DNA from: a virus
Virus record (IMG/VR): IMGVR_UViG_3300047362_001285
Coordinates: 1-24,686 of that record
Reading direction: 5' to 3' (one strand)
Length of the DNA: 24,686 nt
Each line of letters opens with the position of its first letter. Position 1 is the stretch's first letter. Below the pieces are notes generated by a model. The model worked only from the letters and a program-made list of their open reading frames with translations. It was not told where the DNA came from and did not search any database. Below are positions 3,651 to 16,908 of this stretch, piece after piece. Position numbers and translations under genes: made by a program.

Positions 3651-4013
3651 TTAATTTCGTCTCATTTTGGCGTATTCTTCAGGTGAATCACCTTTGCCGA
3701 CTGGGACTGTGTTTGATTTGTGAAGAGTGGCAAGTCCGACAATGTAGTCTCCTGAGTATTCGTTTGCTGCTCGTTTACCTGCGATTGGCATGACGATGTC
3801 CGACGTTGGGATTGACGTACATTCTGTTGAATAGCTCGGAAGTGACGTGACATGGACTTTCTCTTTCTGTTTGAGTTGAGTAGGATGGACACCTCGTGCC
3901 ATTAACCATTTATCATGTTCTGCTTTGGCTTTTTCCCAGCCAGGTTTACGATTCTTCTTTGACTGTTTTCTGTTGAGACTTGACATCCCTCGAATCATAT
4001 GCATTCCGCTCAT
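3651..4013 (-). CDS. Conserved hypothetical phage protein (120 aa)
   Basis: A basic, Lys/Arg-rich protein. The N-terminal part (about residues 14-50) is helical and charged (KKNRKPGWEKAKAEHDKWL). The C-terminal part carries IVGLATLHKSN and ends with GDSPEEYAKMRRN, a tail I recall from conserved phage hypotheticals without assigned function. The ATG at 4013 has AGGAG six bases upstream. It overlaps the preceding 55-aa gene by 68 nt in another frame. Expression probably comes from the promoter at 4137-4165. No enzymatic motif is visible. Confidence 0.82.
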   Translation of the reverse strand: MSGMHMIRGMSSLNRKQSKKNRKPGWEKAKAEHDKWLMARGVHPTQLKQKEKVHVTSLPSYSTECTSIPTSDIVMPIAGKRAANEYSGDYIVGLATLHKSNTVPVGKGDSPEEYAKMRRN

Positions 4014-4173: not shown

Positions 4174-4803
4174 TTAGTTTATTTTAATAATATGTCCACC
4201 TGCTTGAAAATTTGGTACGATTAAACGCTCAACCAGGCTTAGCTCGTCTGGATGTATAAATGCAGAACCAAACACTAATCTCTCTGTGAGATTACCGGTG
4301 AATTCTTCAGGTATATGCCAATCTCCAGCATCAAATACTACTGCTCTACCAGGTTTATTTTTAATTAACGTCGCCTCTTGCATAAATTTTCTTTTATTTG
4401 TGCCAGCTGGAGTATTTAATCTTGTAGGTTTATAATTTTTTCCTTCACTAAAATATGTACCACCGCCCCATTCATTATTCCACTCATAATTCAAATAAAT
4501 TAAAATACGTTTTACTTTACCGTTAATTTGTTCTATAGCATCAGAAGTAAAATCTTGGTGTGGTAGCATAGTAGGTTTGTCTGGTACAAATCTAAATATA
4601 AATCTTAAATCGTGCCAACGATACCAATCTTTGTAAATGTGATTATAATGAGATAATATTTTTTCAGATATTTTTTTATCTTTTAAATATGCATCATGTA
4701 ATAATCTTTTTGCAGTATCTTTGTGGCTATAATCATATTTTTGTTGAGTAAATTCTAAATTGTTAAGAAATTCTACATCTTCAATATCGAATACTTCTAT
4801 CAT
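4174..4803 (-). CDS. 2-oxoglutarate/Fe(II)-dependent oxygenase
   Basis: A 209-aa protein with the facial triad of the 2OG-Fe(II) dioxygenase superfamily: His82 and Asp84 in PHQDFTSD, His163 in DAGDWHIPEE, and Arg175 in NLTERLVFGS as the expected 2-oxoglutarate anchor. The GGGTYF segment at about 113-118 fits the core jelly-roll strand of prolyl-hydroxylase-like members. Such enzymes hydroxylate proteins, lipids or small molecules; the substrate here is unknown. The start at 4803 is chosen because ATGA overlaps the stop of the ketoacyl synthase gene; a start nine codons upstream would lie inside that gene. As last gene of the envelope/lipid operon it may act on a product of that pathway, which is inference. 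Confidence 0.85.
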   Translation of the reverse strand: MIEVFDIEDVEFLNNLEFTQQKYDYSHKDTAKRLLHDAYLKDKKISEKILSHYNHIYKDWYRWHDLRFIFRFVPDKPTMLPHQDFTSDAIEQINGKVKRILIYLNYEWNNEWGGGTYFSEGKNYKPTRLNTPAGTNKRKFMQEATLIKNKPGRAVVFDAGDWHIPEEFTGNLTERLVFGSAFIHPDELSLVERLIVPNFQAGGHIIKIN

Positions 4804-5942
4804 GCTGAACCTATAACTAATGATGCACACTTACCACCAAAGCCAAAAGAATTATTCATTACAAAATCAACATTTGTTTTAAGAGGAGATCTTACTACAT
4901 TTTCATATTCTGTATTTATGCAGTTGTAAGTATGCGGTATAATATTATGTTGTATTGATAAAATAGAATAAATTGTTTCTAAAATACCAGCAGCAGCAAA
5001 CGTATGACCAATCTTTCCTTTGTTTGAAGTAACTAATAAATCGCCTATATCTTGAATAGCTTCATATTCTACTTTATCTCCAACTGGAGTTGATGTGCCA
5101 TGGGCATTTACATAATCTACAGTATCTACTTCTGCATTATCTAAAGCCTTATTCATGACAATTCTTGCTCCGCTTCCGCTTGGATTTGTACGGTCAAATG
5201 CATCAGAGGCATGTGCAACTGGATATAACCATGCGTGAATTCTTGCACCGCGAGCAATAGCCTTCTCTTCACTTTCTAATATCATACATCCGCCGCCTTC
5301 ACCCATAACAAATCCATCACGATTATTATCGAATGGCATAGATTTATTACCTAATGCCCGTAAACTAGAAAATACTTCTAAATCAACCTCATTAATTCCG
5401 TTATCTGAACCACCGCAGATTACATAATCATATTCATCAATAAATCTCATTGCTATATCAATACTAACGATACCAGTTGCACACGCTGCTTGAGCTGCAA
5501 AATTGACGCCAGTAGTTCCATAATATTGTGATATTAAACTTGCTGCTGAATCACATGGTTGATTCAATGCTTTTAACGGATGCATTCTTTCTCTGATAAC
5601 CATATCAAACAAACCGTTTTTACTACAGCACGTAGAATAAAAAACTCCTACATTTTCACTAATATCAATTTTAGAATCTAATAAAGCTTGATGAGTGCTA
5701 TGTAATGCATAGCACATAGATCTAGGCATATTTTTTAATAGCTTAGTGTTAAAATCTTCTGGATAAATATTTTCACTGGTAGGGATATGGCAATTATTTA
5801 CTTTGATTTGTTTACGCGGTACGACAATATCTTCAAAGGGTTTATCGTATGAATTATTATCTAATAAGTTATCGAAACATTGGACAGAATTATTGCCCAA
5901 TGCATCGATCATACCAATACCTGTAACGGCTACTCTTTTCAT
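4800..5942 (-). CDS. Beta-ketoacyl-[ACP] synthase, KAS I/II (FabB/FabF) type
   Basis: A 380-aa condensing enzyme that would extend acyl-ACP by two carbons with malonyl-ACP. The catalytic triad is visible: Cys154 in QAACATGIVS, His281 in NAHGTSTPVGD and His313 in SNKGKIGHTFAAAG, with Lys308 at the family's conserved lysine position. The C-terminal NNSFGFGG (363-370) is the KAS gating loop. The N-terminus (RVAVTGIGMIDALG) is also family-typical. It is slightly shorter than bacterial FabF (about 412 aa). It overlaps neighbours on both sides by 4 nt (ATGA), so it is coupled to the lipoprotein and the oxygenase. Such a gene is rare in phages. A polyketide-type condensing enzyme is the alternative, since no chain-length factor or ACP gene is nearby. 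Confidence 0.93.
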   Translation of the reverse strand: MKRVAVTGIGMIDALGNNSVQCFDNLLDNNSYDKPFEDIVVPRKQIKVNNCHIPTSENIYPEDFNTKLLKNMPRSMCYALHSTHQALLDSKIDISENVGVFYSTCCSKNGLFDMVIRERMHPLKALNQPCDSAASLISQYYGTTGVNFAAQAACATGIVSIDIAMRFIDEYDYVICGGSDNGINEVDLEVFSSLRALGNKSMPFDNNRDGFVMGEGGGCMILESEEKAIARGARIHAWLYPVAHASDAFDRTNPSGSGARIVMNKALDNAEVDTVDYVNAHGTSTPVGDKVEYEAIQDIGDLLVTSNKGKIGHTFAAAGILETIYSILSIQHNIIPHTYNCINTEYENVVRSPLKTNVDFVMNNSFGFGGKCASLVIGSA

Positions 5943-6565
5943 GAATCGGCAAGCACCTCTAGTTCTTTAAGATCGGCTTCGTTTTGAGTTTCGACATTAT
6001 TATCGAGTTCTTTCCAAGCTTGAGTAGATCTAAGCTTTGATAGTAATGCAGCATTTTTAGCTACTCGAGTTCGAATAACATTTGCAGCAACTTCATTGCG
6101 ATACTCAAGCAAAACGTATGATCGATATTGTGTGCCGTTTTGTACGATTACATTTTCTTTAATTGTGTAACCAGCAACGTCAGCATCTGCAATAAGATTA
6201 CGCGTAACTTGTTCAAACTCAACAGCAACATTAGAATCAAAATCAGTAGCACCTAATTTTGATTTAAACGTTTTAAGCTGAGATCGAATACGACTATCAA
6301 CACGATCAGCGAGAGTGGTCTTAGCTGATAGTACTGCGATATCTACTGCGAGTTGAAGATCTGGTGTGACTGCAGTACCAACTGCATATACAGCGTCATC
6401 TTCTTTTGGGATATTTGTATACCACTTAGGCATATCATCAATTTGTTTTTCGACTTGTTCAGTACGATATTCAAATTCTTTTTCAGACATTACCAAATTT
6501 GGTGGTAATTTATCACTACATGCAGATAGACCTAATACACCTGCCATTAACAAAACACTTCTCAT
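5939..6565 (-). CDS. LPP20-like lipoprotein
   Basis: A 208-aa lipoprotein starting MRSVLLMAGVLGLSAC, a classic signal peptide with a lipobox (LSAC) and lipidated Cys16, so it would be anchored in the host envelope. The body (PKWYTNIP, AVYAVGTAV, then LADRVDSRIRSQL and a VLLEYR strand) resembles the LPP20 lipoprotein family. The start at 6565 is preferred over an in-frame ATG at 6577 because that upstream ATG is part of the TGGAG ribosome-binding site. It starts one base after the 42-aa gene stops and overlaps the ketoacyl synthase start by 4 nt. Phage-encoded lipoproteins often alter envelope properties or block superinfection; neither is shown here. Confidence 0.82.
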   Translation of the reverse strand: MRSVLLMAGVLGLSACSDKLPPNLVMSEKEFEYRTEQVEKQIDDMPKWYTNIPKEDDAVYAVGTAVTPDLQLAVDIAVLSAKTTLADRVDSRIRSQLKTFKSKLGATDFDSNVAVEFEQVTRNLIADADVAGYTIKENVIVQNGTQYRSYVLLEYRNEVAANVIRTRVAKNAALLSKLRSTQAWKELDNNVETQNEADLKELEVLADS

Positions 6566-6566
6566 T

Positions 6567-6695
6567 TTATACTCCATTTAATCCATCAACAATAAAGTCT
6601 CTCAAACCAGAATCGACAAATAGATTCTGCATATCTGGGAAAAACACTGTCATACCTATACCTATAACAATTCCCAAGCACATATTAATCATCAT
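6567..6695 (-). CDS. Mini membrane protein (42 aa)
   Basis: ATG at 6695 with AGGAG four bases upstream; 42 codons then TAA. The N-terminal 20 residues are hydrophobic and Gly/Ile-rich (CLGIVIGIGMTVFF), a probable single transmembrane helix, followed by a short polar tail ending DFIVDGLNGV. Both ends are coupled: ATGA overlap with the upstream exported protein, and a one-base gap to the lipoprotein start. The tight fit between genes is the main evidence that it is real. Function is unknown. Confidence 0.72.
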   Translation of the reverse strand: MMINMCLGIVIGIGMTVFFPDMQNLFVDSGLRDFIVDGLNGV

Positions 6696-6970
6696 AAAAC
6701 TCCTAGACTTAATACTACTTCTAACAACTTACTGATACTTTGATTGTTTTCTTCAGCACCAAATAAGAATTCACCTACACCACGATCCTTTGATGGCATT
6801 TCTTTCTCGATAACAACAACCTTTGGAGGTGATTTACAATCATATTTTTTAATATCATTGATAACCGATCCATCTGAATAGGTTGTTTGTTGCGAATAGA
6901 AACAATCTTGTGCGTAAGCACTAGTTCCAATCGTTATCCATAGCAACAGTATCGCGCATCTTATCGCCAT
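6692..6970 (-). CDS. Small exported protein with two cysteines (92 aa)
   Basis: Starts at ATG 6970, preceded by CGGAG. Residues 1-20 form a Sec signal peptide ending in SAYA before QDC. The mature part has two Cys (about residues 23 and 45) flanking a YSDGSVINDIKKYD segment, so a disulfide in the periplasm is possible, then a charged middle and a hydrophobic C-terminus (LLEVVLSLGVL). The frame is open a further 35 codons upstream, but that extension is basic, has no ribosome-binding site and lies inside the 81-aa gene. It is part of the envelope-directed operon. Function is unknown. Confidence 0.75.
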   Translation of the reverse strand: MAIRCAILLLWITIGTSAYAQDCFYSQQTTYSDGSVINDIKKYDCKSPPKVVVIEKEMPSKDRGVGEFLFGAEENNQSISKLLEVVLSLGVL

Positions 6971-7166
6971 AATATTTCTCCGCATATTGTGGCGCATCTT
7001 GCCAGTGGTTGTAGTTTTCGTCAAGATCTTGACCCTTTTTAGGTTCAACTTCTTGGCGAGTATAATAAGCTTCACGCTTTTTCATTGCAGCCAATCTTTT
7101 AGATGCAGCACGGATAGCATCCATACGCTCTTCATAAGTCGACTCTTTAGTGATAACAATAGCCAT
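6921..7166 (-). CDS. Conserved hypothetical phage protein (81 aa)
   Basis: A charged helical N-terminus (RMDAIRAASKRLAAMKKREAYY) is followed by an acidic, aromatic-rich tail (HWQDAPQYAEKYYGDK). No known domain is recognised. The ribosome-binding site GGGAGG lies about nine bases before ATG 7166. It overlaps the next gene start by 50 nt and follows the 68-aa gene with a one-base gap. Confidence 0.8.
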   Translation of the reverse strand: MAIVITKESTYEERMDAIRAASKRLAAMKKREAYYTRQEVEPKKGQDLDENYNHWQDAPQYAEKYYGDKMRDTVAMDNDWN

Positions 7167-7167
7167 A

Positions 7168-7374
7168 TTAGTTTCCTCCCAATTGTACAGTCATTTCATA
7201 CCAAACATCTTCGATAATGTCAGAAATTTCTTGGCCACTTAAATGTGGCACCATGCTAAAAGCTTTAATTGTTCTCTTAGCATACTCTTCGAATGATTCA
7301 GAATCAATTGCAATACCAGCACACTTATCAATGAACTGCTCTTCAACATCCATAACATAACTTGACATACCCAT
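7168..7374 (-). CDS. Conserved hypothetical phage protein (68 aa)
   Basis: A short acidic helical protein (SFEEYAKRTIKAF, then SGQEISDIIEDVWYEMTVQLGG). No known motif. Its ATG at 7374 shares one base with the TAA of the preceding 38-aa gene. The compact head-to-tail arrangement in the operon from promoter 7798-7826 supports it. Confidence 0.78.
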   Translation of the reverse strand: MGMSSYVMDVEEQFIDKCAGIAIDSESFEEYAKRTIKAFSMVPHLSGQEISDIIEDVWYEMTVQLGGN

Positions 7375-7490
7375 TATTCTACCTCCTCAACATCAATACC
7401 ATAATATTCTTTTGGATCTACTTCGAAACGACCACACTCAGACAAATAAGGATTTTCAATCCAAATACCGTTAAACTCAAAACCTTCCAT
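7374..7490 (-). CDS. Mini protein (38 aa) with FNGIWIENPYLSECGRFEVDP motif
   Basis: ATG at 7490 and TAA at 7376-7374 give a 38-aa product. Both ends share a single base with the neighbouring genes (TAATG on each side), which is strong evidence for a translated gene. The sequence is dense in aromatic and acidic residues, and its central WIENPYLSECG resembles a short conserved protein I recall from marine T4-like phages. Function is unknown; a small protein-binding inhibitor or adaptor is possible. Confidence 0.75.
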   Translation of the reverse strand: MEGFEFNGIWIENPYLSECGRFEVDPKEYYGIDVEEVE

Positions 7491-7762
7491 TATCGCACCT
7501 CATAACCAAGATTATCATAAACCCAATCTTCACCAAGATCAGCAGCAAAAGCCATAACAACACCTTCGCGCGGATGTGTATCCATACGATCGATAAAGCT
7601 ACGAAGAGAACCCATATGGCCACGCTTATACCGATATTTGGCTTCGATCACGTCATTGCGATCTTCAGCATACATTTCAGCCATATCGTTGTCAACACCC
7701 ATAAATTCAACGTGGGCATTCCAAAGATTCTTTTCTAGCTTTGTAAGATTTTCTAAAAACAT
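7490..7762 (-). CDS. Conserved hypothetical phage protein (90 aa), first gene of the envelope/lipid operon
   Basis: Start chosen at ATG 7762, six bases after GAGGAG. An in-frame ATG at 7786 would put that ribosome-binding site inside the gene and lies in the conserved leader. The protein is helical and charged (TKLEKNLWNAHVEFM, then AEMYAEDRNDVIEAKYRYKRG) and ends with a less charged stretch containing GEDWVYDNLGY. No catalytic motif. It lies directly downstream of the TGTACA-type promoter at 7798-7826, so it is likely expressed early. Confidence 0.8.
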   Translation of the reverse strand: MFLENLTKLEKNLWNAHVEFMGVDNDMAEMYAEDRNDVIEAKYRYKRGHMGSLRSFIDRMDTHPREGVVMAFAADLGEDWVYDNLGYEVR

Positions 7763-7797
7763 TTTTTGCTCCTCAGCTTTCTTCATTTTATAGATCT

Positions 7798-7826
7798 ATT
7801 ATACCCTGTTTTTTTAGGTTTGTACA
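7798..7826 (-). promoter_or_regulatory. TGTACA-type promoter for the envelope/lipid operon
   Basis: -35 TGTACA (7826-7821), 17-nt spacer, consensus -10 TATAAT (7803-7798), followed by AGATCTATAAAATGAA and a leader ending AGCTGAGGAGC, nearly identical to the leader of the promoter at 3598-3626. It would drive about ten genes from 7762 to 4174. Confidence 0.85.
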
Positions 7827-7862
7827 CAAAAAAACGCACTTTGTTTTCGAATAAAAACAAAG
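7827..7862 (-). terminator. Intrinsic terminator after the 87-aa gene
   Basis: On the minus strand CTTTGTTTT, a six-base loop TATTCG and AAAACAAAG form a 9-bp stem (7862-7839), followed by TGCG and seven T. It ends exactly where the next promoter's -35 begins, so one unit stops and the next starts. The stem is AT-rich, hence moderate confidence. Confidence 0.6.
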
Positions 7863-7888
7863 GCTTATCATTTTTTTTAAAAAAAGTT

Positions 7889-8152
7889 TTAAGACTGATA
7901 GATTTTGCGAAGCAAATCTTCGAATTGGTCTACTTTTTCTACACGATTTGGCCATAAAATATAATCCTTTTCGGGATTTTTCTTCAAATTATTGAGCAAA
8001 GGAGTAATAGCATTGTATAACTTATCAAGTTTTTCTTGATTAGTATTAGCTTTTACTTCAACATCTCCTTTTGCCTTTTCTGCATCTTGTACTGCTTGTA
8101 GTTCTGTTTCATCTACAGCGGTAAAACCGAAATCGAACATGTCATCAGACAT
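7889..8152 (-). CDS. Conserved phage protein (87 aa) with FDFGFTAVDE and KDYILWPNR motifs
   Basis: The acidic N-terminus (MFDFGFTAVDETELQAV) and C-terminal segment (NLKKNPEKDYILWPNRVEKV) match a pattern I recall from conserved hypothetical proteins of marine T4-like phages. No enzymatic function is known to me. The ATG at 8152 follows AGGAGAATGGGAA. It overlaps the 47-aa gene by 8 nt and is followed by an intrinsic terminator, so it is the last gene of the unit that also carries the tRNA. Confidence 0.85.
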   Translation of the reverse strand: MSDDMFDFGFTAVDETELQAVQDAEKAKGDVEVKANTNQEKLDKLYNAITPLLNNLKKNPEKDYILWPNRVEKVDQFEDLLRKIYQS

Positions 8153-8288
8153 TTCCCATTCTCCTTTGATGTGCGTAATTTACAAATATAACCCAACCAA
8201 CAATAGCCCACATAATACTATGAATTAGTCCTTGAGATATGACCCAAGCAAACATTGAAACCATAATATGGTCATACCATTTTAACAT
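8145..8288 (-). CDS. Mini membrane protein (47 aa)
   Basis: ATG at 8288 follows AGAGGAAGTTAA. The 47-aa product is mostly hydrophobic and Trp-rich: MVSMFAWVISQGLIH, then SIMWAIVGWVIFVNY, which can form two short or one long transmembrane segment, ending in basic HQRR. The stop TGA overlaps the next start by 8 nt. It lies 16 nt downstream of the tRNA 3' end. Function is unknown; its size and topology would suit a small envelope-acting or holin-accessory protein. Confidence 0.7.
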   Translation of the reverse strand: MLKWYDHIMVSMFAWVISQGLIHSIMWAIVGWVIFVNYAHQRRMGNV

Positions 8289-8304
8289 TTAACTTCCTCT
8301 AACT

Positions 8305-8381
8305 TGGCGATTCCGGTAGGATTCGAACCCACGACCCACAGCTTAGAAGGCTGTTGCTCTATCCATCTGAGCTACGGAACC
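8305..8381 (-). tRNA. tRNA-Arg (anticodon UCU), CCA encoded
   Basis: The cloverleaf folds by eye: acceptor GGTTCCG pairs with CGGAATC (one G-U), discriminator G, encoded CCA at 8307-8305. The D arm is TAGCTCAGATGGATAGAGC, the anticodon loop CTTCTAA gives anticodon TCT, and the T arm contains GGTTCGAATCC. It reads AGA (and AGG by wobble), codons favoured in AT-rich phage genes but often rare in hosts. It is transcribed with the neighbouring small genes, so its 5' and 3' ends must be processed from a longer RNA. Confidence 0.96.
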
Positions 8382-8639
8382 AAAAATCCGGGTGGGGCTA
8401 ACCATGGCCCCACATGCACTTATTAGGGAGTGACCCCTTATTAAGCAGAGCTCTCGTATGAATGAGAGGTGCGTTCTCCTTTGTTGTGAGTCTTTCTAAT
8501 GAGGGCACTCTATAATTCCCACCTGCGTCTTAAATTTAAAGTCGTTTACAGGCTTAACCGCGTTATACCGCTCGACTATAGGATTAGCAAAATCGCATCA
8601 ACTGAGAGAGGAGCGAGACAGGAGCGATTTTGCTAAACT
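8382..8639 (-). ncRNA. Candidate structured non-coding RNA region between a small gene and tRNA-Arg
   Basis: About 258 nt with no credible reading frame. It is visibly more GC-rich than neighbouring genes (hand count about 30 of 60 in 8401-8460). On the minus strand it contains, in order: a 13-bp hairpin (8636-8584); AGTCG pairing with CGACT around two mini-hairpins (GCG-CGC and GG-CC); CTCTC-GAGAG; and GTGGGGC-GCCCCAC (8413-8392) followed by a T5 run before the tRNA. An AAAGGAG lacks a following start codon. Structure and composition suggest a functional RNA. I recognise no known family, and no tmRNA or riboswitch core is evident. Confidence 0.4.
8584..8636. repeat. Perfect 13-bp inverted repeat with 27-nt loop
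   Basis: TTAGCAAAATCGC (8584-8596) and its exact reverse complement (8624-8636) flank a purine-rich loop with GAGAGAGGAGCGAGACAGGA. It starts immediately after the stop of the 77-aa gene. No T-run follows on either strand, so it is not a standard intrinsic terminator; RNA-end protection or a processing site is possible. Confidence 0.8.
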
Positions 8640-8873
8640 CTACCACATCCACTCAACTTCGATACCAAACTCTGGTTCTGCTTCATTTTGTTGAGTAACA
8701 TGGTTAAATCCACTATTATGATATGTTTTTAGATTGATAAGTTTTTTACCAGACTTTTCATATTCCTCTCTAAGTTCTGCAAACTTATCTGTAAGACTTA
8801 CACCATCACCATTATATTCGTTAAATGGATGCGTTGTAAAATAAGAACCTAATATTTCTGAAGTTCTTTCCAT
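8640..8873 (-). CDS. Hypothetical phage protein (77 aa)
   Basis: A soluble protein with a helical, charged centre (LTDKFAELREEYEKSGKKLI) and an acidic C-terminus (EAEPEFGIEVEWMW). I do not recognise it. The ATG at 8873 shares one base with the stop of the upstream 118-aa gene, and the gene ends at the base of the 13-bp hairpin. Second gene of the unit from promoter 9263-9291. Confidence 0.75.
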   Translation of the reverse strand: MERTSEILGSYFTTHPFNEYNGDGVSLTDKFAELREEYEKSGKKLINLKTYHNSGFNHVTQQNEAEPEFGIEVEWMW

Positions 8874-9229
8874 TATGCTGCATCCTCACACCATGCATTT
8901 TCTACTTCCATGACTGGATCTGGATTATGATCATAGTTAGAATTGAATCTTTCATAAGCCACATTCAAATCGTCCATAGTGCAACAAAGGCTTAGCAAAT
9001 ACCGAGCATTGCCCTTTGATGTTAAGTTAGCAATATAGTCAAACAGACCATAGTACTCCATCTGGTATTCGTACTGCTCGACAGTAGTAATACCCTGATC
9101 TGCCCAATGTGCAGGATCAGTGACAGTCATGCCATAAAAAGAACCAGGATTCTCATCCATCCACTTCTTACCTTCAGCATTCTTAGCTTCGATGTGGGCT
9201 TGCAATTCGATTTGTGATTTAGTAAACAT
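8873..9229 (-). CDS. Hypothetical phage protein (118 aa)
   Basis: ATG at 9229 with GAGGAG six bases upstream. The N-terminal half is helical and charged (FTKSQIELQAHIEAKNAEGKK); the middle holds MTVTDPAHWADQGITTVEQY, followed by EYQMEYYGLFDYIANLT; it ends acidic (CEDAA). Four Cys are scattered without a clear metal motif. Function is unknown. It is the first gene after a TGTACA-type promoter, so probably an early gene. Confidence 0.8.
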   Translation of the reverse strand: MFTKSQIELQAHIEAKNAEGKKWMDENPGSFYGMTVTDPAHWADQGITTVEQYEYQMEYYGLFDYIANLTSKGNARYLLSLCCTMDDLNVAYERFNSNYDHNPDPVMEVENAWCEDAA

Positions 9230-9262
9230 TTAAGGCTCCTCTTCCTTCTTTATTGTAGGACC

Positions 9263-9291
9263 ATTATACCCTGTTTTTACCGATTTGTACA
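9263..9291 (-). promoter_or_regulatory. TGTACA-type promoter for the tRNA/structured-RNA unit
   Basis: -35 TGTACA (9291-9286), 17-nt spacer, -10 TATAAT (9268-9263), preceded by ATGCGTTTTAGGCAT and followed by a leader with AGAGGAG. It drives the 118-aa and 77-aa genes, the structured region, tRNA-Arg, and the 47- and 87-aa genes up to the terminator at 7827-7862. Confidence 0.85.
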
Positions 9292-9310
9292 TGCCTAAAA
9301 CGCATTTTTT

Positions 9311-10114
9311 TTAATTTATTCGAAATAAATCTGGTAAATTCATCCATTCTTTCCAATTAGTAGCATAAGCTTCTTCATAATCGAACATAATTTCTATTGA
9401 CTCTATATATTCTATTCTTTCAGGAGGAGTAGAAGAACTATAACCAACATCAATCAGACCCCAAGATCTTGGTTTAATATTATTATTTGCGCACCACTTT
9501 TCAGCCTTTGAATCAAATGGCTTATGTTTATCGTGGGCATATATGATTGTAAAGTCTGCAGACCAATGAGATTGATTAACAATCTTTTCTGCAAATGAGT
9601 CGTTATCATGATATATGTCATACATAGGTTTACCTACGTGGCAATAATTAATACAAACTGTACCAGGTTTTTGGTTAAAATTAAATCTCGCTTGCATTGA
9701 TTCATCTAATAAAAACTTATCAGGATTTTTAAAAGAACAGACAATGCGTTTACTATTAATACTTTCAAGATGGTGAATATTTACGTTATACTTAATAATG
9801 TTATCTTGTATTAATCGCGGAGCTTTATTAAAAAACTCTGGTTCCATCATTCTTTCGAAGTGTGTATGAAGCTCGTTTAGATCTTCAGTATCTGGTAAAT
9901 CTTCATAAAATTTTATAAGACCTACTGATTTGCGAAGTTTTTCATAAATTTTTTCATATGTTATTTCATCATTCAAACCATAAATTCTATCACGTTCCCA
10001 TATATTATTAATATTTTTTCTTACTTCATTGAACCATCTTTGACTTAGTTCATCATCGTATGGATATATGTCAATAGATTCATCATTATCAAATTTCAGT
10101 CTTAGATAATACAT
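9311..10114 (-). CDS. Unknown phage protein (267 aa) with multiple His/Asp clusters
   Basis: A soluble acidic protein without signal peptide or membrane segment. The first 65 residues are highly charged and helical; then come ELHTHFERMM, IHHLESIN, INYCHVGKPMYDIYHDND and IIYAHDKHKPFD, giving several His/Asp clusters that could hold a metal. I cannot assign it to a family. It is the last gene of the unit with the zincin, SWIM protein and desaturase, overlapping the desaturase by 26 nt, so a role linked to lipid modification is possible but unproven. Confidence 0.82.
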   Translation of the reverse strand: MYYLRLKFDNDESIDIYPYDDELSQRWFNEVRKNINNIWERDRIYGLNDEITYEKIYEKLRKSVGLIKFYEDLPDTEDLNELHTHFERMMEPEFFNKAPRLIQDNIIKYNVNIHHLESINSKRIVCSFKNPDKFLLDESMQARFNFNQKPGTVCINYCHVGKPMYDIYHDNDSFAEKIVNQSHWSADFTIIYAHDKHKPFDSKAEKWCANNNIKPRSWGLIDVGYSSSTPPERIEYIESIEIMFDYEEAYATNWKEWMNLPDLFRIN

Positions 10115-10937
10115 CTAATTTTTTGCCTTTAATTTCAATAACACCTATTTTGCCTAATAATTCCATAAATCTTGATGAATAATCTAACCAACCAGGATTA
10201 AAACTATACGCATATGGTTTAGCGTGGTGTTCCTCATGATACATACCTTCTGGATCTCCAAATGATAAAACCCACAAGTACCATGGAATGCTTCGTGTTT
10301 TAGCTTTTGTTTTATGAGCATAAGCATCAATAACACCTAATCCATGAAATTCTAAACAAGATGCTGCAGCTAAAACACTAAGGCCTTCTATACCGAAAAA
10401 AAGAATAATTAATGACCATAACGTAAAAGCAATGAATTTAGGGTAAAGACTGAAAACCCACAAATGTTTATAATTTTTTAATAAGTCGATATATATTTTT
10501 CTATTAAGTTGATCTTTATTTACTGTAGCACCCCATAAATGAAAATGTGCAGCAAACATACCAATCTGTGAAGGGCTATGTAGATCTAATTTATCGTCTA
10601 AGTGATCGTGATGTAATCTATGTGCAATTGCCCATTCAATAGGACCAGTTGGAAACATATGCCCAGAAACTGAAAGATATGAAGTTAGCAATACATCAAT
10701 TGTTTTACTTTTAAATTTCCAGTGACCATGAGAAATGCCCTTATGCAAAAATGAAGACACAGTAAAAGCTTGCAATTGAAACAAACCAAATGCAATAGCT
10801 AATAACCAGTATGCTTCATTCACGTAAATACTATTATAAAAGAAATATACAGTTAATACGTGAGTTGCGATTGCAATGAACAATCTCTCTGGATAATGCA
10901 AAAATTTAGGTAATATTTTTTTTAAGTTGATACCCAT
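10089..10937 (-). CDS. Membrane fatty-acid desaturase (delta-9/acyl-lipid type)
   Basis: A 282-aa di-iron integral membrane enzyme that would introduce a cis double bond into acyl chains using O2 and an electron donor. All three histidine boxes are present: HKGISH (65-70, HX4H), HRLHH (106-110, HXXHH) and HEEHH (234-238, HXXHH). A HGLGVIDAYAH segment lies at 198-208. Hydrophobic segments at about 17-37, 42-62, 80-95 and 165-205 fit the four-helix topology. The length suits bacterial acyl-CoA/acyl-lipid desaturases. No ferredoxin or reductase gene is nearby, so host electron donors would be needed. It overlaps both neighbours (16 and 26 nt) in the unit driven from 11582-11610. Confidence 0.93.
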   Translation of the reverse strand: MGINLKKILPKFLHYPERLFIAIATHVLTVYFFYNSIYVNEAYWLLAIAFGLFQLQAFTVSSFLHKGISHGHWKFKSKTIDVLLTSYLSVSGHMFPTGPIEWAIAHRLHHDHLDDKLDLHSPSQIGMFAAHFHLWGATVNKDQLNRKIYIDLLKNYKHLWVFSLYPKFIAFTLWSLIILFFGIEGLSVLAAASCLEFHGLGVIDAYAHKTKAKTRSIPWYLWVLSFGDPEGMYHEEHHAKPYAYSFNPGWLDYSSRFMELLGKIGVIEIKGKKLDVLSKTEI

Positions 10938-11146
10938 TTATTTGAAATTTCCTTTGTATGCTTACATTTTCCGTGTACTGCCATACCAATACATTCACAC
11001 GAAAAACCTTTATCTGTGAATACTACTGTATATTTATCACCGCGACTTCCAACAATAGAATATTCAATACCAACAGCCCAGTGGTTTTTGAAATTAATTT
11101 CTGGTATAGTAAGGTATTTATCTCTAAATTTACGCGACATACTCAT
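10922..11146 (-). CDS. SWIM-type zinc-finger mini protein (74 aa)
   Basis: Cys50 and Cys52 (CEC), eight residues, then Cys61-Lys-His63 match the SWIM zinc-finger consensus CxCxnCxH, with the preceding strands YTVVFTDKGFSCEC typical of the fold. SWIM fingers bind nucleic acids or proteins and are usually parts of larger proteins; a stand-alone 74-aa version is unusual. The basic N-terminus (SRKFRDKY) fits nucleic-acid contact. It overlaps the zincin by 17 nt and the desaturase by 16 nt. Confidence 0.78.
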   Translation of the reverse strand: MSMSRKFRDKYLTIPEINFKNHWAVGIEYSIVGSRGDKYTVVFTDKGFSCECIGMAVHGKCKHTKEISNKWVST

Positions 11147-11555
11147 ACTCCTTAAATAATTCTTCTTGTAAATAATATGCTTCAGCTTCCCACGGTTGGG
11201 CCATATACTCTTTTGTTGTACTCGTAATACAAATATATTCTACACCACACCAAGTTTTTGTACAAAATCCAGTGTCAATTAACTCTTTACGTGCACCTTG
11301 TTTGACATGTACAATCTCATGAAAAATTGCAGTAATCATATCATCTTCATCGATACCTTTTTGTATCTCAATTTCAAATGTACGGTTATCAACCTGTAAA
11401 CAATAACCGTCAACTGTGTCATAGATATTCTTAATCTCAATAGTAATATCTAATGTCTTCATGCGTGGCATAAGTTTGTGCACAGCAAATTCTGCAGCTT
11501 CTATACAAAGCTTACGTTCTTTTGCTGTACCACCAATTACTTCAATAATATTCAT
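11130..11555 (-). CDS. Zincin-like metalloprotease (HExxH)
   Basis: 141 aa with HEIVH at 79-83 in the helix MITAIFHEIVHVKQG, the catalytic zinc motif of gluzincin-type peptidases, and a downstream PWEAEAY (121-127) giving Glu123 as a likely third ligand. No signal peptide is present, so it should act in the cytoplasm. Small zincins of this kind occur in many phages with unknown targets. The ATG at 11555 follows GAGGAG at good spacing. First gene of the unit under promoter 11582-11610, hence probably early. Whether it is proteolytic or only structural is not determined by sequence. Confidence 0.8.
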   Translation of the reverse strand: MNIIEVIGGTAKERKLCIEAAEFAVHKLMPRMKTLDITIEIKNIYDTVDGYCLQVDNRTFEIEIQKGIDEDDMITAIFHEIVHVKQGARKELIDTGFCTKTWCGVEYICITSTTKEYMAQPWEAEAYYLQEELFKEYEYVA

Positions 11556-11581
11556 GATTGCTCCTCTTTCATTATGGATCT

Positions 11582-11610
11582 ATTATACCCTATAATGCAA
11601 GCAATGTACA
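11582..11610 (-). promoter_or_regulatory. TGTACA-type promoter for the zincin/desaturase unit
   Basis: -35 TGTACA (11610-11605), 17-nt spacer, -10 TATAAT (11587-11582), followed by AGATCCATAATGAAAGAGGAG and the zincin start. The leader closely matches that of the promoter at 17830-17858. Confidence 0.85.
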
Positions 11611-11619
11611 TGTTTATTT

Positions 11620-12243
11620 TTACTTATGAACTTCTATTTCGACATTATCTGATGGCTTAAACTTAAGCTTATCGTGTTTATGATGTAATACAAACTTAAC
11701 GCGGTGATGCTTACCGGTGCCATCAAAATCTTTAAACATATTTTTCCATAGTGGTCGCCAGTTATTTGCAAGACGATGGTTATTCATACCACCTCTATCA
11801 GAGTTTATAACAAGATCTGTGTAACTACGTAAATTAAAATCAAATATAGAATCAAATCCCCAAAGATGTACTTCATCAGCTTTTAATTTCTCACATGCAT
11901 AATAAGTTGCCATATGACCGCAATTCAAATCTGTATAGTTAGCAGCGTATTTAGGTAGTTTAGTATAGAATTCTTTAATTTGACCTGCAATTTGTAGATG
12001 AAATTTAGGATTTCTATTACAATATTCTTTTGGCCGTGCACCACAAATCCATTCTCCAGGTACTTGAATTTCTCCTTTATGAATAGTATTCATCATTTTA
12101 AAGTCTACAATACAAGTAGCATATACTCCTTCAACTTCAAACGGTGCCAAGTTACATGTAAGCTTGAGACCTTTTCTTTTTGGAACTTCATTATAAAATG
12201 CAGCTGAATCACCATTTCCAATTACTTGTACAATTCTTGGCAT
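11620..12243 (-). CDS. Rossmann-like protein, possible sugar or nucleotide transferase (207 aa)
   Basis: The N-terminus IVQVIGNGDSAAFY looks like a nucleotide-binding beta-loop-alpha start, and a later stretch CGHMATYYACEKLKADEV followed by HLWGFDS resembles the core of DUF115/MptE-like and GT42-type enzymes. The C-terminus is basic and His-rich (TGKHHRVKFVLHHKHDKLK). The match is by pattern only. It is the last gene of the glycan block and abuts the GT8-like gene with a TAATG overlap, which favours a role in glycan building. Unknown function remains possible. Confidence 0.55.
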   Translation of the reverse strand: MPRIVQVIGNGDSAAFYNEVPKRKGLKLTCNLAPFEVEGVYATCIVDFKMMNTIHKGEIQVPGEWICGARPKEYCNRNPKFHLQIAGQIKEFYTKLPKYAANYTDLNCGHMATYYACEKLKADEVHLWGFDSIFDFNLRSYTDLVINSDRGGMNNHRLANNWRPLWKNMFKDFDGTGKHHRVKFVLHHKHDKLKFKPSDNVEIEVHK

Positions 12244-12899
12244 TACATCATACTCCTAATTGTATCATTACCTTTTTCGCCAGTCCAATGCATAATTTTA
12301 ATTCTACCATTATAATTATCCTGTTCAACTTGCAACCGCATAACGTTATACTCATTTGGTAACGGATTAATATTAGCTAGCTGAGTAATTGGATTCAACA
12401 TAGAGTGCAACATTTCTTGATCACCAATATTTTGTTGAGCATGAACTACATTACACCATTGCGCTAATACAGTAGGTTTATCGATATAGCCTACAACACC
12501 AGAATTATACCAAACTTCGCCGCGGCGTTTAGTCCATGGTTTATCTTCAACCATATTTAACATATTTGGTTTTAGCATAGAAAACATATTGTCAATATTT
12601 GCTAGAACTTGGCAATCAGTATCTAACCATACAGCTCTTTTTGCTGGAACATGATACATGGATAATGGCTTTTTAAACCAGCCTCGTTCTTTACCTTTGG
12701 TATCCATAGTCATAATGGCTTCAACACAGGGGTGTTTTACTACTTTGTTCACCATATCTTGTGACATACCAAAATCTGTAATTATAATTTTTGTTTTATT
12801 TCTCTGTTTCTTGAAATTCTTAAGAAACCATGGCAACTGCCATTCAGTTTTATGGTCACAGCCAGTTACAAACAATTCATCTCTAATTTTCTTATTCAT
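12243..12899 (-). CDS. GT-A fold glycosyltransferase, family 8-like (218 aa)
   Basis: The DxD metal/nucleotide-sugar motif is D93-T-D95 in AVWLDTDCQVLANID; WYNSGVVGY, GDQEML and IMHWTG follow in the order seen in GT8-type enzymes. It probably transfers a hexose from an NDP-sugar; donor and acceptor are unknown. The start at 12899 (ATG, sharing one base with the preceding TGA) is preferred over an in-frame TTG one codon upstream. Soluble, no membrane segment. Part of the contiguous glycan block 11620-16355. Confidence 0.8.
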   Translation of the reverse strand: MNKKIRDELFVTGCDHKTEWQLPWFLKNFKKQRNKTKIIITDFGMSQDMVNKVVKHPCVEAIMTMDTKGKERGWFKKPLSMYHVPAKRAVWLDTDCQVLANIDNMFSMLKPNMLNMVEDKPWTKRRGEVWYNSGVVGYIDKPTVLAQWCNVVHAQQNIGDQEMLHSMLNPITQLANINPLPNEYNVMRLQVEQDNYNGRIKIMHWTGEKGNDTIRSMM

Positions 12900-13543
12900 C
12901 AAATAATCTCGTATGTTTCATCATATCTATGTTTAGCCAAGCAACCAGCTTCTTTTTGAATAGTAGTAAAAGAATCTGAAGCTATACAAATCCATGGATA
13001 TAATTCTTCTAGCCATGGAAATAAATTCAAATTCAAAAATACATCTGTTGGAGCTGCTTCTATTTTAGCTTTTTCCATTAACTCTTTAGCACCTTTTGGA
13101 CTTACTATATATCCATGTGCTCCACCGAAATATTGTTTTTGTACTAAACCATCAACTCCAATTTTCATTGGAGTATTAAATTTGCCATAAGATGGTTTTG
13201 AAAATGTAATTACTTTATTAAATTTAAAGTCTGTTGGTAATGAACCTGTAACTACAGCATCATGCTCGAAGATGATAATATCTTCATTTGTATCTACAGC
13301 TTTTTTCCATAAATTATAATGAGATAAAAATGCAGCAACAGTATTATCTAATCTAGAATATTTTTCTACAAATCCGTGGGGTGAAATACCTAATTTATGA
13401 ATTAATTCAATAGGTCTATCTGATGGTGTTATTGCTTTAAATTTTTCAATTGCAAATCCATACTTTTTTCCAGATTTAATGCATCTGTTAGCGGCTTGTA
13501 CTGATTTCTCAATTGACTCAATAGTAATTACAAAGGCTTTCAT
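12899..13543 (-). CDS. Glycosyltransferase family 25-like protein, copy A (214 aa)
   Basis: Begins MKAFVITIESIEKS, a GT25 (LPS-type beta-glycosyltransferase) start, with AFLSHYNLWKKA at 71-82 and the acidic motif E93-H-D95 at the place where GT25 enzymes usually have E(D/E)D. A GGAHGYIVSPKGAKEL segment also fits the family. It is paralogous to the next gene, which shares MKA(F/Y)VITI and SHYxLW. The middle His in the acidic motif is a deviation shared by both copies. It likely adds a sugar to a surface glycan; donor unknown. Confidence 0.8.
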   Translation of the reverse strand: MKAFVITIESIEKSVQAANRCIKSGKKYGFAIEKFKAITPSDRPIELIHKLGISPHGFVEKYSRLDNTVAAFLSHYNLWKKAVDTNEDIIIFEHDAVVTGSLPTDFKFNKVITFSKPSYGKFNTPMKIGVDGLVQKQYFGGAHGYIVSPKGAKELMEKAKIEAAPTDVFLNLNLFPWLEELYPWICIASDSFTTIQKEAGCLAKHRYDETYEII

Positions 13544-13545
13544 TT

Positions 13546-14241
13546 TTAATCCGTAGTAGTTGAAGGTAATCCTTGAACAAATGTATAATATTGCTTAGTC
13601 ACACCCATTCTTTTGACCAATTGTTTACACATAATTGCGTCATTAGGCCATAATCCATAATCTTCGACTGCAGCAATTACAGCACTAGCTCCTTTAGGTT
13701 TAATTATATATGCGCTGTTTCCAGCTAAACCCTGCGGAACATCGAATGAATCCACATTTGGAATTTTGCAGATGTCTGTCTTACAATTTTTTACAATTGA
13801 ATCAAACTGACGTGATCTACGAGTTGCACCAATAGGATCATTTAAACCAATAATATTATATTTTGATTGAAGGATATAATCAGGATTAAGTTTTTTTCTA
13901 AATTGTGCATCATGTTCTAATACTAAAATTGGTTCATTTTCATTTTGGCATTTTTGCCATAATCTATAATGACTTACTGCACACGAAACTCTTGCTAATG
14001 GATCTCTTGTTTGATACGCAGATAATCGTAATCCAGTTTTAAGACAAGTTTCTTCACCTTCCCATGGATAATCCCATTGAATTCCATAATCTGACATTAC
14101 TTCGCCGCAATCAATAGGTGTACTAGCTTCAAATTTTTCAATCGTAAAATCATTGCCTACTTGTTCAGATGAGGCTATACAATTTTCAGCTGCAGCTTCT
14201 GACAATGTATGACCTAATATTGTAATCACATATGCTTTCAT
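13546..14241 (-). CDS. Glycosyltransferase family 25-like protein, copy B (231 aa)
   Basis: A second GT25-like protein in tandem: MKAYVITILG at the start, AVSHYRLWQKC at about 88-98, acidic motif E109-H-D111, and NSAYIIKPKGASAV. Compared with copy A it has an insertion near residues 50-80. The arrangement suggests a duplication followed by divergence, perhaps for two successive linkages. It starts inside an ATGA overlap with the methyltransferase stop and is separated from copy A by two bases. Confidence 0.8.
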   Translation of the reverse strand: MKAYVITILGHTLSEAAAENCIASSEQVGNDFTIEKFEASTPIDCGEVMSDYGIQWDYPWEGEETCLKTGLRLSAYQTRDPLARVSCAVSHYRLWQKCQNENEPILVLEHDAQFRKKLNPDYILQSKYNIIGLNDPIGATRRSRQFDSIVKNCKTDICKIPNVDSFDVPQGLAGNSAYIIKPKGASAVIAAVEDYGLWPNDAIMCKQLVKRMGVTKQYYTFVQGLPSTTTD

Positions 14242-14870
14242 GATCTTAACTCAATGATATAACTATCTGGTTGTTTAGTTAATTTACGGTTATCATGTCG
14301 TAAAACTCTCAAGTCAGATTGCTCTAGTGCATTCAAGAACAGTTGATTATCCATAGAATTATATCGATCAGGATATCGTTGCAACCATTGATGTTCTAGT
14401 TCTTTATCATTCATTAATTCTAAAGGCCAAACATCTTCAATAAAATAAACACCTTCTTTTTTTAGCAATCTCTTAAGATTTAAAAAGGTTTCTTTATTTG
14501 CTGTTGGTGTATGCATACCATCATCAATGATAATATCAAACTTTACGGACTTACCAAACTTATCACGAATTTGTTTGTAAACTGTAGTGTCCATACTACT
14601 AGCTTTAATCCACTGTGTTCTATCTTTTTTATAACACTCGAGATCTTCTGGATTTGTGCGAGTAAAAATATCTAAACCATATAATTCAGCGTGTGGAAAA
14701 TATTCGTGCAAAGCCTCAGTGCTATGACCATTAAATACACCAATTTCTAAGATTCGCAAATCAGTTTTATTTTTTAGTTTTTTAAACACAGGTTCATAGA
14801 TTTTTTCGTATCGGTGTTTTCTAGTCTTATCACATCCATACTTATTAAATAGATTTCCGAGCTCACTCAT
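14238..14870 (-). CDS. Class I SAM-dependent methyltransferase (210 aa)
   Basis: Motif I LEIGVFNGHS (41-50) binds S-adenosylmethionine, with the acidic residue of motif II in GLDIF (about 65-69) and IIIDDGMH (113-120) as motif IV. The pattern resembles the sugar O-methyltransferases/cephalosporin-hydroxylase-like group acting in polysaccharide or antibiotic pathways. Its place between GT25 genes and a sulfotransferase makes a sugar O-methyltransferase the best guess. Overlaps: 8 nt with the sulfotransferase, 4 nt with GT25 copy B. Confidence 0.83.
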   Translation of the reverse strand: MSELGNLFNKYGCDKTRKHRYEKIYEPVFKKLKNKTDLRILEIGVFNGHSTEALHEYFPHAELYGLDIFTRTNPEDLECYKKDRTQWIKASSMDTTVYKQIRDKFGKSVKFDIIIDDGMHTPTANKETFLNLKRLLKKEGVYFIEDVWPLELMNDKELEHQWLQRYPDRYNSMDNQLFLNALEQSDLRVLRHDNRKLTKQPDSYIIELRS

Positions 14871-15567
14871 TATCTAGTCTCCAATAATTTTTAGTTGGTC
14901 CACTATCAAAATCAAATCCCCACATATCAATATCTTTTTTATACCAATCAGCAATGATTTGAATTGTTTCTTTGTTGTACATATCTTTATATGTACCCTC
15001 ATTCAAAGCGGTCACATTCCTATTTCGTCCCATCATAGGAATGTTAAAATATCTTATAAGATCTTCTTTCAAATGATCTAATCTTAGCATATCGCACACT
15101 AGTTTACCATTAGAATCGGTGACGTAATCAGCAGCCGGATACCACCCTCTGACTGCTCTATGCCACATATATTCTTTATCACCCCATTTATGACGCTCTT
15201 CTAGAAAAGCTTCAAACGATGAGGTATCAGCATATCCAGGATTTTGCTTTTTTTCAATTTCAATAACCTTTTTAGCAAAGAAATATCTTGAAACTACTCT
15301 ATCCCATGGATTACGAATAACTGCAAAAGCATCGTGTACCTTTGTAAATTTTTCATGAAGATCCACCCATCGTGCATGCTGAATGCCGTGATGATCTCCT
15401 AATTCTTTCATTGTTTTAAGTAAACCGTTTGTGTATTGTTTACTTTTGTGTATACGTGCATCAGCAGCAATAATATTATCTTTTACTAATAAACTATGCC
15501 TAACGGTCATACCAGCATTTTTTGGAATATGAATAAATATTTTTTTAGAAATGTCGCTTATGTTCAT
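14863..15567 (-). CDS. Sulfotransferase, carbohydrate-type (234 aa)
   Basis: Both PAPS-binding elements are present: the 5'-phosphosulfate loop IPKNAGMT (14-21) and the 3'-phosphate motif IRNPWDRVVSRYFF (84-97). They have the form of the sulfotransferase family 2 enzymes that sulfate sugars. No signal peptide, so it would act in the cytoplasm on nucleotide- or lipid-linked glycans. It requires PAPS from the host. Phage sulfotransferases are uncommon. It overlaps the GT8-like gene by 4 nt upstream and the methyltransferase by 8 nt downstream, so the set is translationally coupled. Confidence 0.87.
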   Translation of the reverse strand: MNISDISKKIFIHIPKNAGMTVRHSLLVKDNIIAADARIHKSKQYTNGLLKTMKELGDHHGIQHARWVDLHEKFTKVHDAFAVIRNPWDRVVSRYFFAKKVIEIEKKQNPGYADTSSFEAFLEERHKWGDKEYMWHRAVRGWYPAADYVTDSNGKLVCDMLRLDHLKEDLIRYFNIPMMGRNRNVTALNEGTYKDMYNKETIQIIADWYKKDIDMWGFDFDSGPTKNYWRLDNE

Positions 15568-16355
15568 ACTTTAGTCATTAGCTCCTTTACGTTTTCGCCC
15601 TTGTTTGGTAATTTGTCTTTTAAGAAAAAATGTACAAAGTTTGCTTCTTTTACCTTATCAGATTTAACTGCAGTAAAGAGAGCGTTCCATTTCCAATTGA
15701 GTCTTTGCACGTTCATACCGCATGTATTTACCCAGTAATTAAGTAACGTCTGATCTGTAGACCATTTCCATGGTCCTACACCATCAACGAATTGTTTAAA
15801 TTCTGATCTACGTATAAACTGTTCTGGCGTTTGATTATTAAGATATTTGGCAAATGACTTATTCATTACCATCATTCCCATATTCATAAATGGAAATCCA
15901 GTTTTATCGTTGTATTGACCATTCCATGCAGGAATCTTAAGAGTTCCGTATTGCATGCGAGAATACCCCAATATTTTTTGATTATACCATGGCTCAATTG
16001 GCATTTCGCTTTCAACCACACCGCCAAAATCTACATCAGCATCTATTTCTAAAAATATATCAGGTGCACCAGGACGAATCCAAATATCTGCATCAATGAT
16101 TGCAATTTGATCATAGTCTTTAAAATAAGAAAAGGCGTTTTCCTTCTCAAAGATTGGAAGAAAACCGCCATGTTTCTCGTAAGATTCTTTACTACGCCCT
16201 GTCATGAAGATGTCAGGTTTGATACGCAACTTAGGAACAGTTTGTATTACATGATCAATATCATGCGTATCGCAATATGCTTTTACTGATTTAATACAAT
16301 GATCATATAGTTTAGATTTCGCGCCTACTGCGACTTGATAAATCATTCTTTTCAT
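15564..16355 (-). CDS. GT-A fold glycosyltransferase (263 aa), first gene of the glycan block
   Basis: The DxD motif is D88-A-D90 in IAIIDADIWIRPGAP. FMNMGMMVMNKS and STDQTLLNYW correspond to the NxG and DQ motifs of GT8-like enzymes. It is not closely similar by eye to the other GT8-like protein at 12243, apart from these motifs. Soluble. The ATG at 16355 follows AGAGGTTATT. Donor and acceptor are unknown; the neighbours suggest it starts or extends a glycan that is then methylated and sulfated. Confidence 0.8.
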   Translation of the reverse strand: MKRMIYQVAVGAKSKLYDHCIKSVKAYCDTHDIDHVIQTVPKLRIKPDIFMTGRSKESYEKHGGFLPIFEKENAFSYFKDYDQIAIIDADIWIRPGAPDIFLEIDADVDFGGVVESEMPIEPWYNQKILGYSRMQYGTLKIPAWNGQYNDKTGFPFMNMGMMVMNKSFAKYLNNQTPEQFIRRSEFKQFVDGVGPWKWSTDQTLLNYWVNTCGMNVQRLNWKWNALFTAVKSDKVKEANFVHFFLKDKLPNKGENVKELMTKV

Positions 16356-16363
16356 AATAACCT

Positions 16364-16564
16364 CTAATAACGAAGTAGATAGTCCCAGTGGCCTTCAATT
16401 CTAATACAGACCCAATCTCGCTTCATAGTCCTAAAATCATACTTAAATTCTTGTTCAGTTTTTGCAAAATAACAATTATTCAAGCCTTCGAATATATCTA
16501 TACTTTCAGCAACTGGTTCACCATTAACGATAGTAACCATTACTAGTAACCACTTAACCATCAT
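16364..16564 (-). CDS. Small protein with N-terminal hydrophobic segment (66 aa)
   Basis: MMVKWLLVMVTIVNG is a short hydrophobic start that may be a signal anchor; the rest carries two Cys (NNCYFAKT, DWVCIRI) and an aromatic C-terminus. Both Cys could pair in the periplasm if exported. Function is unknown. It overlaps the EF-hand gene by 4 nt (ATGA). Resembles small envelope proteins of marine phages in style only. Confidence 0.7.
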   Translation of the reverse strand: MMVKWLLVMVTIVNGEPVAESIDIFEGLNNCYFAKTEQEFKYDFRTMKRDWVCIRIEGHWDYLLRY

Positions 16565-16908
16565 TTTTTAGGTGATGGTTTTTTACCCTTTACGGCATCT
16601 GCACCAAAAAATGCAGCAACCAATACAGAAATAGATACAAAATATGTTGGAGCAATATCGCTAATTAATTCTGCAGCTTTATCTTGACCAGCTAAAGTTG
16701 TAATTAAAATAATTGCTGGATATAATAGCATTCCGAATAATGCAAACCATGTCATTTTTCTCATGGCATCTCTTTGTGCATCGGCATCCTCAAGTTCTTT
16801 TCTTTTAAACTCAAGATGCATTTCAAGTTCTTTAGGACTGATATGACCATCACCATTGGTATCAGCTTCATCCAGTCCACTCACTGTTTTTACAGTCGTC
16901 TCTGACAT
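16561..16908 (-). CDS. EF-hand protein with two transmembrane helices (115 aa)
   Basis: From ATG 16908 (GGAG seven bases upstream) the protein has one canonical EF-hand loop, DTNGDGHISPKE at 16-27, with all calcium-ligand positions intact; a charged helix (HLEFKRKELEDADAQRDAM); then two hydrophobic helices at about 54-73 and 85-104 and a Lys-rich tail. I recall similar proteins as conserved hypotheticals in marine T4-like phages. A holin or Ca2+-sensing membrane role is possible but unproven. Upstream in-frame codons were not used because they lie in the 77-aa gene and lack a ribosome-binding site. Confidence 0.82.
   Translation of the reverse strand: MSETTVKTVSGLDEADTNGDGHISPKELEMHLEFKRKELEDADAQRDAMRKMTWFALFGMLLYPAIILITTLAGQDKAAELISDIAPTYFVSISVLVAAFFGADAVKGKKPSPKK

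Follow-up and report, generated by a model that had tools for sequence, protein, structure and literature searches.

The window, that is, the whole stretch of 24,686 bases analysed here (GC 35%), is a fragment of a marine, T4-like phage. It carries genes for gp32 (1010-1918), PhoH (18546-19226), an RNase H-type exonuclease (21398-22249) and ribonucleotide reductase (RNR; 23064-24635). The nearest relatives of gp32 are found in Phage C48C1 (58%), the OM43 phages Melnitz (56%) and cyanomyophages (54%), while PhoH is nearest to cyanophages (50%) and RNR to Rhizobium and Pseudaeromonas phages (60%). The original prediction for this DNA described a two-part lipid module at 4174-10937, consisting of a beta-ketoacyl synthase (KAS) and a fatty-acid desaturase. 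Both genes proved to be real: the synthase by its Pfam domains and catalytic set, the desaturase by nine histidines, a profile match to SCD1 and its predicted fold. The interval starts at a 2OG-Fe(II) oxygenase gene that is a member of the module and was omitted from the title of the prediction.

The KAS gene (4800..5942, minus strand, 380 aa) encodes a protein of the KAS I/II type that belongs to a viral GFGGK group. Both Pfam KAS domains are present (PF00109, 97.7 bits, 1e-27; PF02801, 93.1 bits, 2e-26; cut-off 20.8), the protein can be aligned over its full length with FabF/FabB structures from the PDB at E-values of about 1e-47 and weaker, and the catalytic set C154, H281, K308 and H313 is invariant when nine diverse phage homologues are aligned. 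Judged from its sequence, by domains and catalytic residues, the protein is confirmed as a genuine KAS I/II member (thiolase fold). Its score for the NCBIfam FabF equivalog TIGR03150 stays below the cut-off (259 vs 493.75 bits), and it was therefore not filed as FabF. Phage KAS and bacterial FabF (KAS II) have in common the Pfam domains, the Cys-His-His and Lys residues and the full-length alignment. They differ in that the best cellular identity to the phage KAS is 33-37%, and in the motif, which is GFGGK[CNS] in the phage proteins and GFGG[TH]N in the cellular ones.

Downstream, the 2OG-Fe(II) oxygenase gene (4174..4803, minus strand) overlaps the KAS stop codon in an ATGA. The protein matches PF13640 at 27.1 bits, barely over the cut-off of 27, and its iron ligands H82, D84 and H163 (HxD...H) and the 2OG arginine R175 are invariant in five homologues. 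The PF13640 type is broad, and its members can have proteins, nucleic acids or small molecules as substrates. No match to PF05118 or to the NCBIfam LpxO model was found for the window oxygenase, and LpxO and OlsC (PF05118) represent a branch separate from this PF13640 protein. Directly upstream of KAS, again with an ATGA overlap, lies a lipoprotein-like gene (5939..6577, minus strand) with a lipobox-like LSAC recognized by eye. This gene is kept in KAS-free relatives, and is therefore a border gene rather than a gene of the module. In related contigs, the KAS site is always flanked by the lipoprotein gene as its left border and by a 120-aa gene (3651..4013, minus strand) as its right border. 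These two genes touch in L196, which has no KAS, indicating that KAS is an accessory insertion.

The membrane acyl desaturase gene (10089..10937, minus strand, 282 aa) encodes an SCD1-like protein. The window desaturase has no match of its own to PF00487 (FA_desaturase) over the Pfam gathering score of 29.7, but its homologues from L007 (37.6 bits) and L122 (50.1 bits) exceed this cut-off. Nine histidines are invariant in 15 phage desaturases (H65, H70, H106, H109, H110, H208, H234, H237 and H238), and the window protein has the complete nine-His di-metal pattern of three histidine boxes and one lone histidine. A profile of 15 phage homologues matches SCD1 at 6e-16, with the alignment spanning the histidine boxes. 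An AlphaFold model (pLDDT 81) was matched by Foldseek to SCD1 6wf2 (E 1e-5, TM 0.67); SCD1 entries were the only matches, the next, unrelated one having an E-value of 2.6. With the DesA family NF049918 the window desaturase scored 19 bits and the L007 protein 42, below the cut-off of 400, and tblastn at 1e-5 retrieved no relative of the window desaturase from 50,697 phage records. Taken together, the histidine pattern, the profile, the predicted fold and the homologues passing PF00487 identify the protein as a divergent membrane desaturase. The end of its gene is overlapped by 26 bases by the gene for protein X (9311..10114, minus strand, 267 aa), which has no family match in Pfam, PHROG or NCBIfam. 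Protein X stays with the desaturase in three allele types, is reduced to 85 aa in L010 and is absent in the types with two desaturases. A structure predicted for it with AF2 from four sequences (pLDDT 39) was not usable.

As originally predicted, KAS and the desaturase belong to different operons, each headed by a TGTACA-N17-TATAAT promoter on the minus strand. The first, at 7797..7826, precedes six to seven genes up to the end of the KAS operon, and the second, at 11581..11610, heads the desaturase operon. The same promoter is also found at 1985, 9291, 17858, 20724 (spacer 16) and 22307; looser matches to it were common in mononucleotide shuffles. The observation of a common promoter thus stands, but the link between the two genes that had been drawn from it was rejected, because the motif heads other operons of the window too. 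TGTACA-N17-TATAAT is a general promoter of the phage, and constitutes no evidence of a shared regulon.

The joint inheritance of the two genes was examined in close relatives taken from IMG/VR. The outcome that the original prediction had named as counting against it, genes never co-occurring in related phages, is not what we found: KAS is present in all six of the desaturase contigs of the lineage that are long enough, three others stopping short of the KAS site, and the desaturase is missing from two long relatives that lack KAS (152 and 98 kb). Across the six contigs with both genes (15 contig pairs), KAS identity correlated with desaturase identity at r = 0.92, and with the mean of the six genes flanking KAS itself at r = 0.06. 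The partial correlation of KAS and desaturase given both flanks was 0.87, a value reached by 1 of 720 label permutations, the observed labelling only, in a small sample of six contigs whose pairs are non-independent, for which the permutation allows only partly. Several of the desaturase alignments are remote. In a control, the next best gene correlated with KAS at 0.53.

The same pattern is visible in individual comparisons. In contig 3300049736 the KAS flanks are mostly 91-100% identical to those of the window (g127 73%), with KAS at 75%, the 2OG oxygenase at 40% and the desaturase at 69%. The reverse is seen in L003/L004, with flanks mostly at 50-84%, KAS at 94-95% and the oxygenase at 92-94%, and in L010, a separate contig from the same sample as L004, with flanks at 48-72% and the desaturase at 91%. 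L018/L021 have KAS flanks 80-98% identical to the window, a KAS at 51%, no 2OG oxygenase and a tandem pair of desaturases with 37 and 33% identity. Finally, L007 and 3300028384 share flanks of about 57-82% and have KAS at 91%, the oxygenase at 91%, the desaturase at 95%, X at 86% and an aminotransferase at 89%. The oxygenase allele was thus swapped along with that of KAS. One could argue that KAS and the desaturase are independent accessory genes in two recombination hot spots, and that the pattern arose by whole-region exchange or shared ancestry. Consistent with this, both sites are variable, other genes of the region vary too, and the two genes were found together in six contigs only. However, the genes g81, g127 and lipoprotein, which lie between both sites, do not follow the pattern (r with KAS of 0.00 to 0.09), and KAS and desaturase are adjacent and overlapping in other phage lineages, so that we hold this explanation to be decidedly improbable. 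Co-occurrence, adjacency in other lineages and inheritance independent of the flanks all argue that KAS and the desaturase form one functional unit. KAS, desaturase and oxygenase are swapped as a set among related phages, suggesting that the phage produces a modified fatty acyl group of its own during infection, probably altering the lipids of the host.

The adjacency was assessed by searching with an alignment of diverse KASs, which found 173 viral stretches with a KAS relative, the best 80 of which were analysed. Among these 80, KAS directly overlaps a desaturase gene in L019, L184, L185, L175 and L187. The same arrangement occurs in L179, where a weak blast match was confirmed by profile. 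L122 and L139 have the order KAS-65aa-269aa-desaturase, with the desaturase two genes beyond KAS. KAS is followed by two PF05118 proteins in L163 and by one in L166, and is accompanied by a 2OG oxygenase in L020. LpxO and OlsC are lipid acyl hydroxylases, and they are the best NCBIfam models for the KAS-adjacent PF05118 proteins of L163/L166, with scores below the cut-offs (27-41 bits vs 450-500 for the L163 proteins). These neighbours of KAS speak for acyl tailoring as the function of the set, but they score far below the cut-offs and are located in phages other than that of the window. Further points against acyl tailoring are the broad PF13640 type of the window oxygenase and L124-L157, the largest freshwater KAS group, where neither desaturase nor oxygenase lies beside KAS; one member, L131, has a desaturase elsewhere in its 128-kb record. 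The recurring theme is a KAS combined with iron-dependent acyl or related oxygenases. The module is not of two parts, as was initially proposed: the 2OG oxygenase is coupled to KAS, and in relatives the set is extended by an aminotransferase, a second desaturase or LpxO/OlsC-like hydroxylases.

KASs of viruses group apart from those of cells. All of the best 80 of 173 have GFGGK[CNS], and the cellular proteins among the matches listed have GFGG followed by T, H or V and then N. In a tree of 72 rows, with cellular rows picked by two short patterns among the matches listed, the 36 viral KAS rows are all on the same side of a branch with SH-aLRT 92, a support below 95, and a stem of 1.07 changes per column; one odd row, L218, sits on a very long branch. 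KAS matches in described phages (29 records) were set aside, since almost all of them appear to stem from contaminating bacteria or from host DNA: many are unverified and labelled by host, and encode typical FabB/FabF with a TN, HN or VN motif. The one well-annotated phage KAS, MW202545, is 27% identical over partial length only. Two further candidates beside KAS were rejected. The 269-aa protein of L122/L139/L165 shows a His/Asp pattern by eye, has no Pfam or NCBIfam support and was not counted as an oxygenase, and the small ORFs of 65-90 aa show no phosphopantetheine-type motif by eye and were not taken for ACP.

What could be the product of such a set? Our preferred reading, held with moderate confidence, is a two-piece acyl-tailoring cassette that provides host lipids with a modified acyl chain by means of host ACP and electron carriers. 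It is supported by the intact catalytic residues of KAS, desaturase and 2OG oxygenase. A phage ACP was sought in 24 records and a Fer2 ferredoxin in 17, and neither was found, which implies that host partners are needed. From its intact catalytic set we infer that KAS would take malonyl- and acyl-groups from host ACP and make, or bias synthesis towards, a particular chain, with host FabG/FabZ/FabI presumably completing the elongation cycle. The membrane desaturase, of which the class is established, would put a double bond into acyl chains as its probable substrate, presumably drawing on host electron carriers, and the oxygenase, whose class is equally clear, may hydroxylate the acyl chain. 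The product would become part of the lipids of the host envelope, phospholipid or lipid A being the likeliest, and would alter the surface or membrane of the infected cell. The tailoring enzymes differ by cassette allele, and different phages probably make different products.

The variable tailoring set could also be read as a small-molecule or signal pathway, in which a polyketide-like KAS would lead not to a membrane lipid but to an acyl amine, a hydroxy acid or a signal, destined either for release or for attachment to protein or DNA. A class III aminotransferase directly follows the desaturase/X genes in L007, 3300028384 and 3300021335, the set varies as a biosynthetic cluster would, and KAS is remote from housekeeping FabF (259 bits, cut-off 494). 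On the other hand, this aminotransferase is missing from the window type, neither ACP nor ketoreductase, thioesterase or transporter accompanied KAS, and membrane desaturases of the SCD1/DesA class act on acyl-CoA or acyl-lipid; we therefore consider such a pathway improbable. Another possibility, raised in the original prediction, is plain membrane fluidization, with KAS and desaturase raising the content of unsaturated or longer phospholipid chains, thus aiding assembly, lysis or cold tolerance, and the oxygenase having a separate job. This would fit the SCD1/DesA class of the desaturase, the desaturases of other phages have been interpreted in this way (PMC7300359; PMC7678222), and L019 and L175 have KAS and desaturase with no recognized oxygenase alongside. 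We find it less likely than the cassette, though still a live alternative, as it leaves unexplained the joint exchange of alleles and tailoring sets, as well as the two-desaturase sets without 2OG oxygenase, the aminotransferase and the LpxO/OlsC-like hydroxylases. Joint allele exchange and changing tailoring sets thus favour a specific product over general fluidity. Extending the acyl-tailoring cassette further, it is possible, if rather doubtful, that the virus-only GFGGK KASs are the core of a phage pathway which, with exchangeable desaturases, hydroxylases and aminotransferases, produces acyl groups foreign to the host, and that the cassettes are traded like serotypes, for example so that competing phages are stopped at the envelope.

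Phage desaturases have so far been interpreted as acting alone in support of membrane fluidity. Roitman et al. reportedly described cyanophage lipid desaturases in 2018. The vFADs of Arctic brine are phage desaturases as well (PMC7300359), and further phage desaturases are known (PMC7678222). The cyanophage desaturases and the vFADs resemble the window protein in being SCD1-like membrane desaturases with histidine boxes; they differ in that the desaturase is reportedly considered by itself there. Here the desaturase is tied to a virus-type chain-building enzyme and an oxygenase, and phage lineages exchange this set in the form of allelic cassettes, even when 4-5 kb separate its parts. A cluster of fabG-acpP-fabF in predicted Rhodobacteraceae prophages (PMC8224337) likewise places fatty-acid elongation genes inside a phage region. 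That cluster is a host-like fab operon with ACP, whereas the window has a lone divergent KAS with oxygenase partners and no ACP. The original prediction knew of no described phage with the KAS-desaturase pair, but freshwater pelagimyophages have been listed with fabF, stearoyl-CoA desaturase and a 2OG oxygenase (2OGFeDO), noted in one sentence as unique genes (PMC7029224). The pair is thus not wholly new, the gene set having already been noticed. These PMP-D pelagimyophages, T4-like and infecting aquatic bacteria, are listed with genes of the same three kinds, a likeness to the window by description only; no synteny, linkage or mechanism is given, and the phage 2OG protein is read as nucleic-acid modifying (PMC7029224). 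Relative to the literature outside subscription journals, it is new that the parts are exchanged jointly, are adjacent in several lineages and come with a variable set of tailoring enzymes, and that viral KASs form a separate group. If the parts act together, aquatic phages would impose acyl chemistry of their own on the host.

An island that adjoins the desaturase operon encodes two GT25 (LPS-type) and GT8 glycosyltransferases, a methyltransferase and a sulfotransferase. It is consistent with an envelope target and proves nothing alone; glycosyltransferase islands are frequent in pelagimyophages (PMC7029224).

Among related IMG/VR viral contigs, the desaturase operon differs in gene content. 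A class III aminotransferase gene (PF00202) forms part of it in some relatives (L007 4514-5590, L016 11552-12628 and L021 4613-5683, in the coordinates of each contig); it was present in L007 and in only two of the 15 records searched, and its product, at about 358 aa, is below the usual length. A tandem pair of overlapping desaturase genes replaces the single desaturase in L018 (5134-6688) and L021 (2997-4629), and these two contigs have lost the 2OG-Fe(II) oxygenase and protein X genes. In the window, the operon opens with two genes (10922-11146 and 11130-11555, minus strand); judged by eye, one product carries a SWIM-like zinc motif (CECIG...GKCKH) and the other, which has weak Pfam support, resembles an HExxH metallopeptidase. 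Envelope-type genes cluster next to this operon (11620-16355, minus strand). Besides GT8-like genes, the cluster encodes two glycosyltransferases of the GT25 type (LPS biosynthesis), together with one methyltransferase and one sulfotransferase.

The ketoacyl synthase gene is immediately preceded by a lipoprotein-like gene (5939-6577, minus strand), whose signal peptide ends in LSAC and which is also kept in relatives lacking the synthase; a search for its family gave no match. The 2OG-Fe(II) oxygenase (4174-4803, minus strand) matches PHROGs 274 and 2297, both labelled DNA endonuclease (V), a label that may be wrong for some of their members.

A tRNA-Arg (TCT) gene (8305-8381, minus strand) sits between the ketoacyl synthase and desaturase operons. 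Also on the minus strand, and again judged by eye, 16561-16998 encodes a small membrane protein in which two hydrophobic stretches follow an EF-hand-like calcium motif (DTNGDGHISPKELE), and 22871-23122, overlapping the end of the ribonucleotide reductase gene, encodes a Cys-rich, DUF1289-like protein of 83 aa (SPCIKVCQIEDDHCEGCGR).
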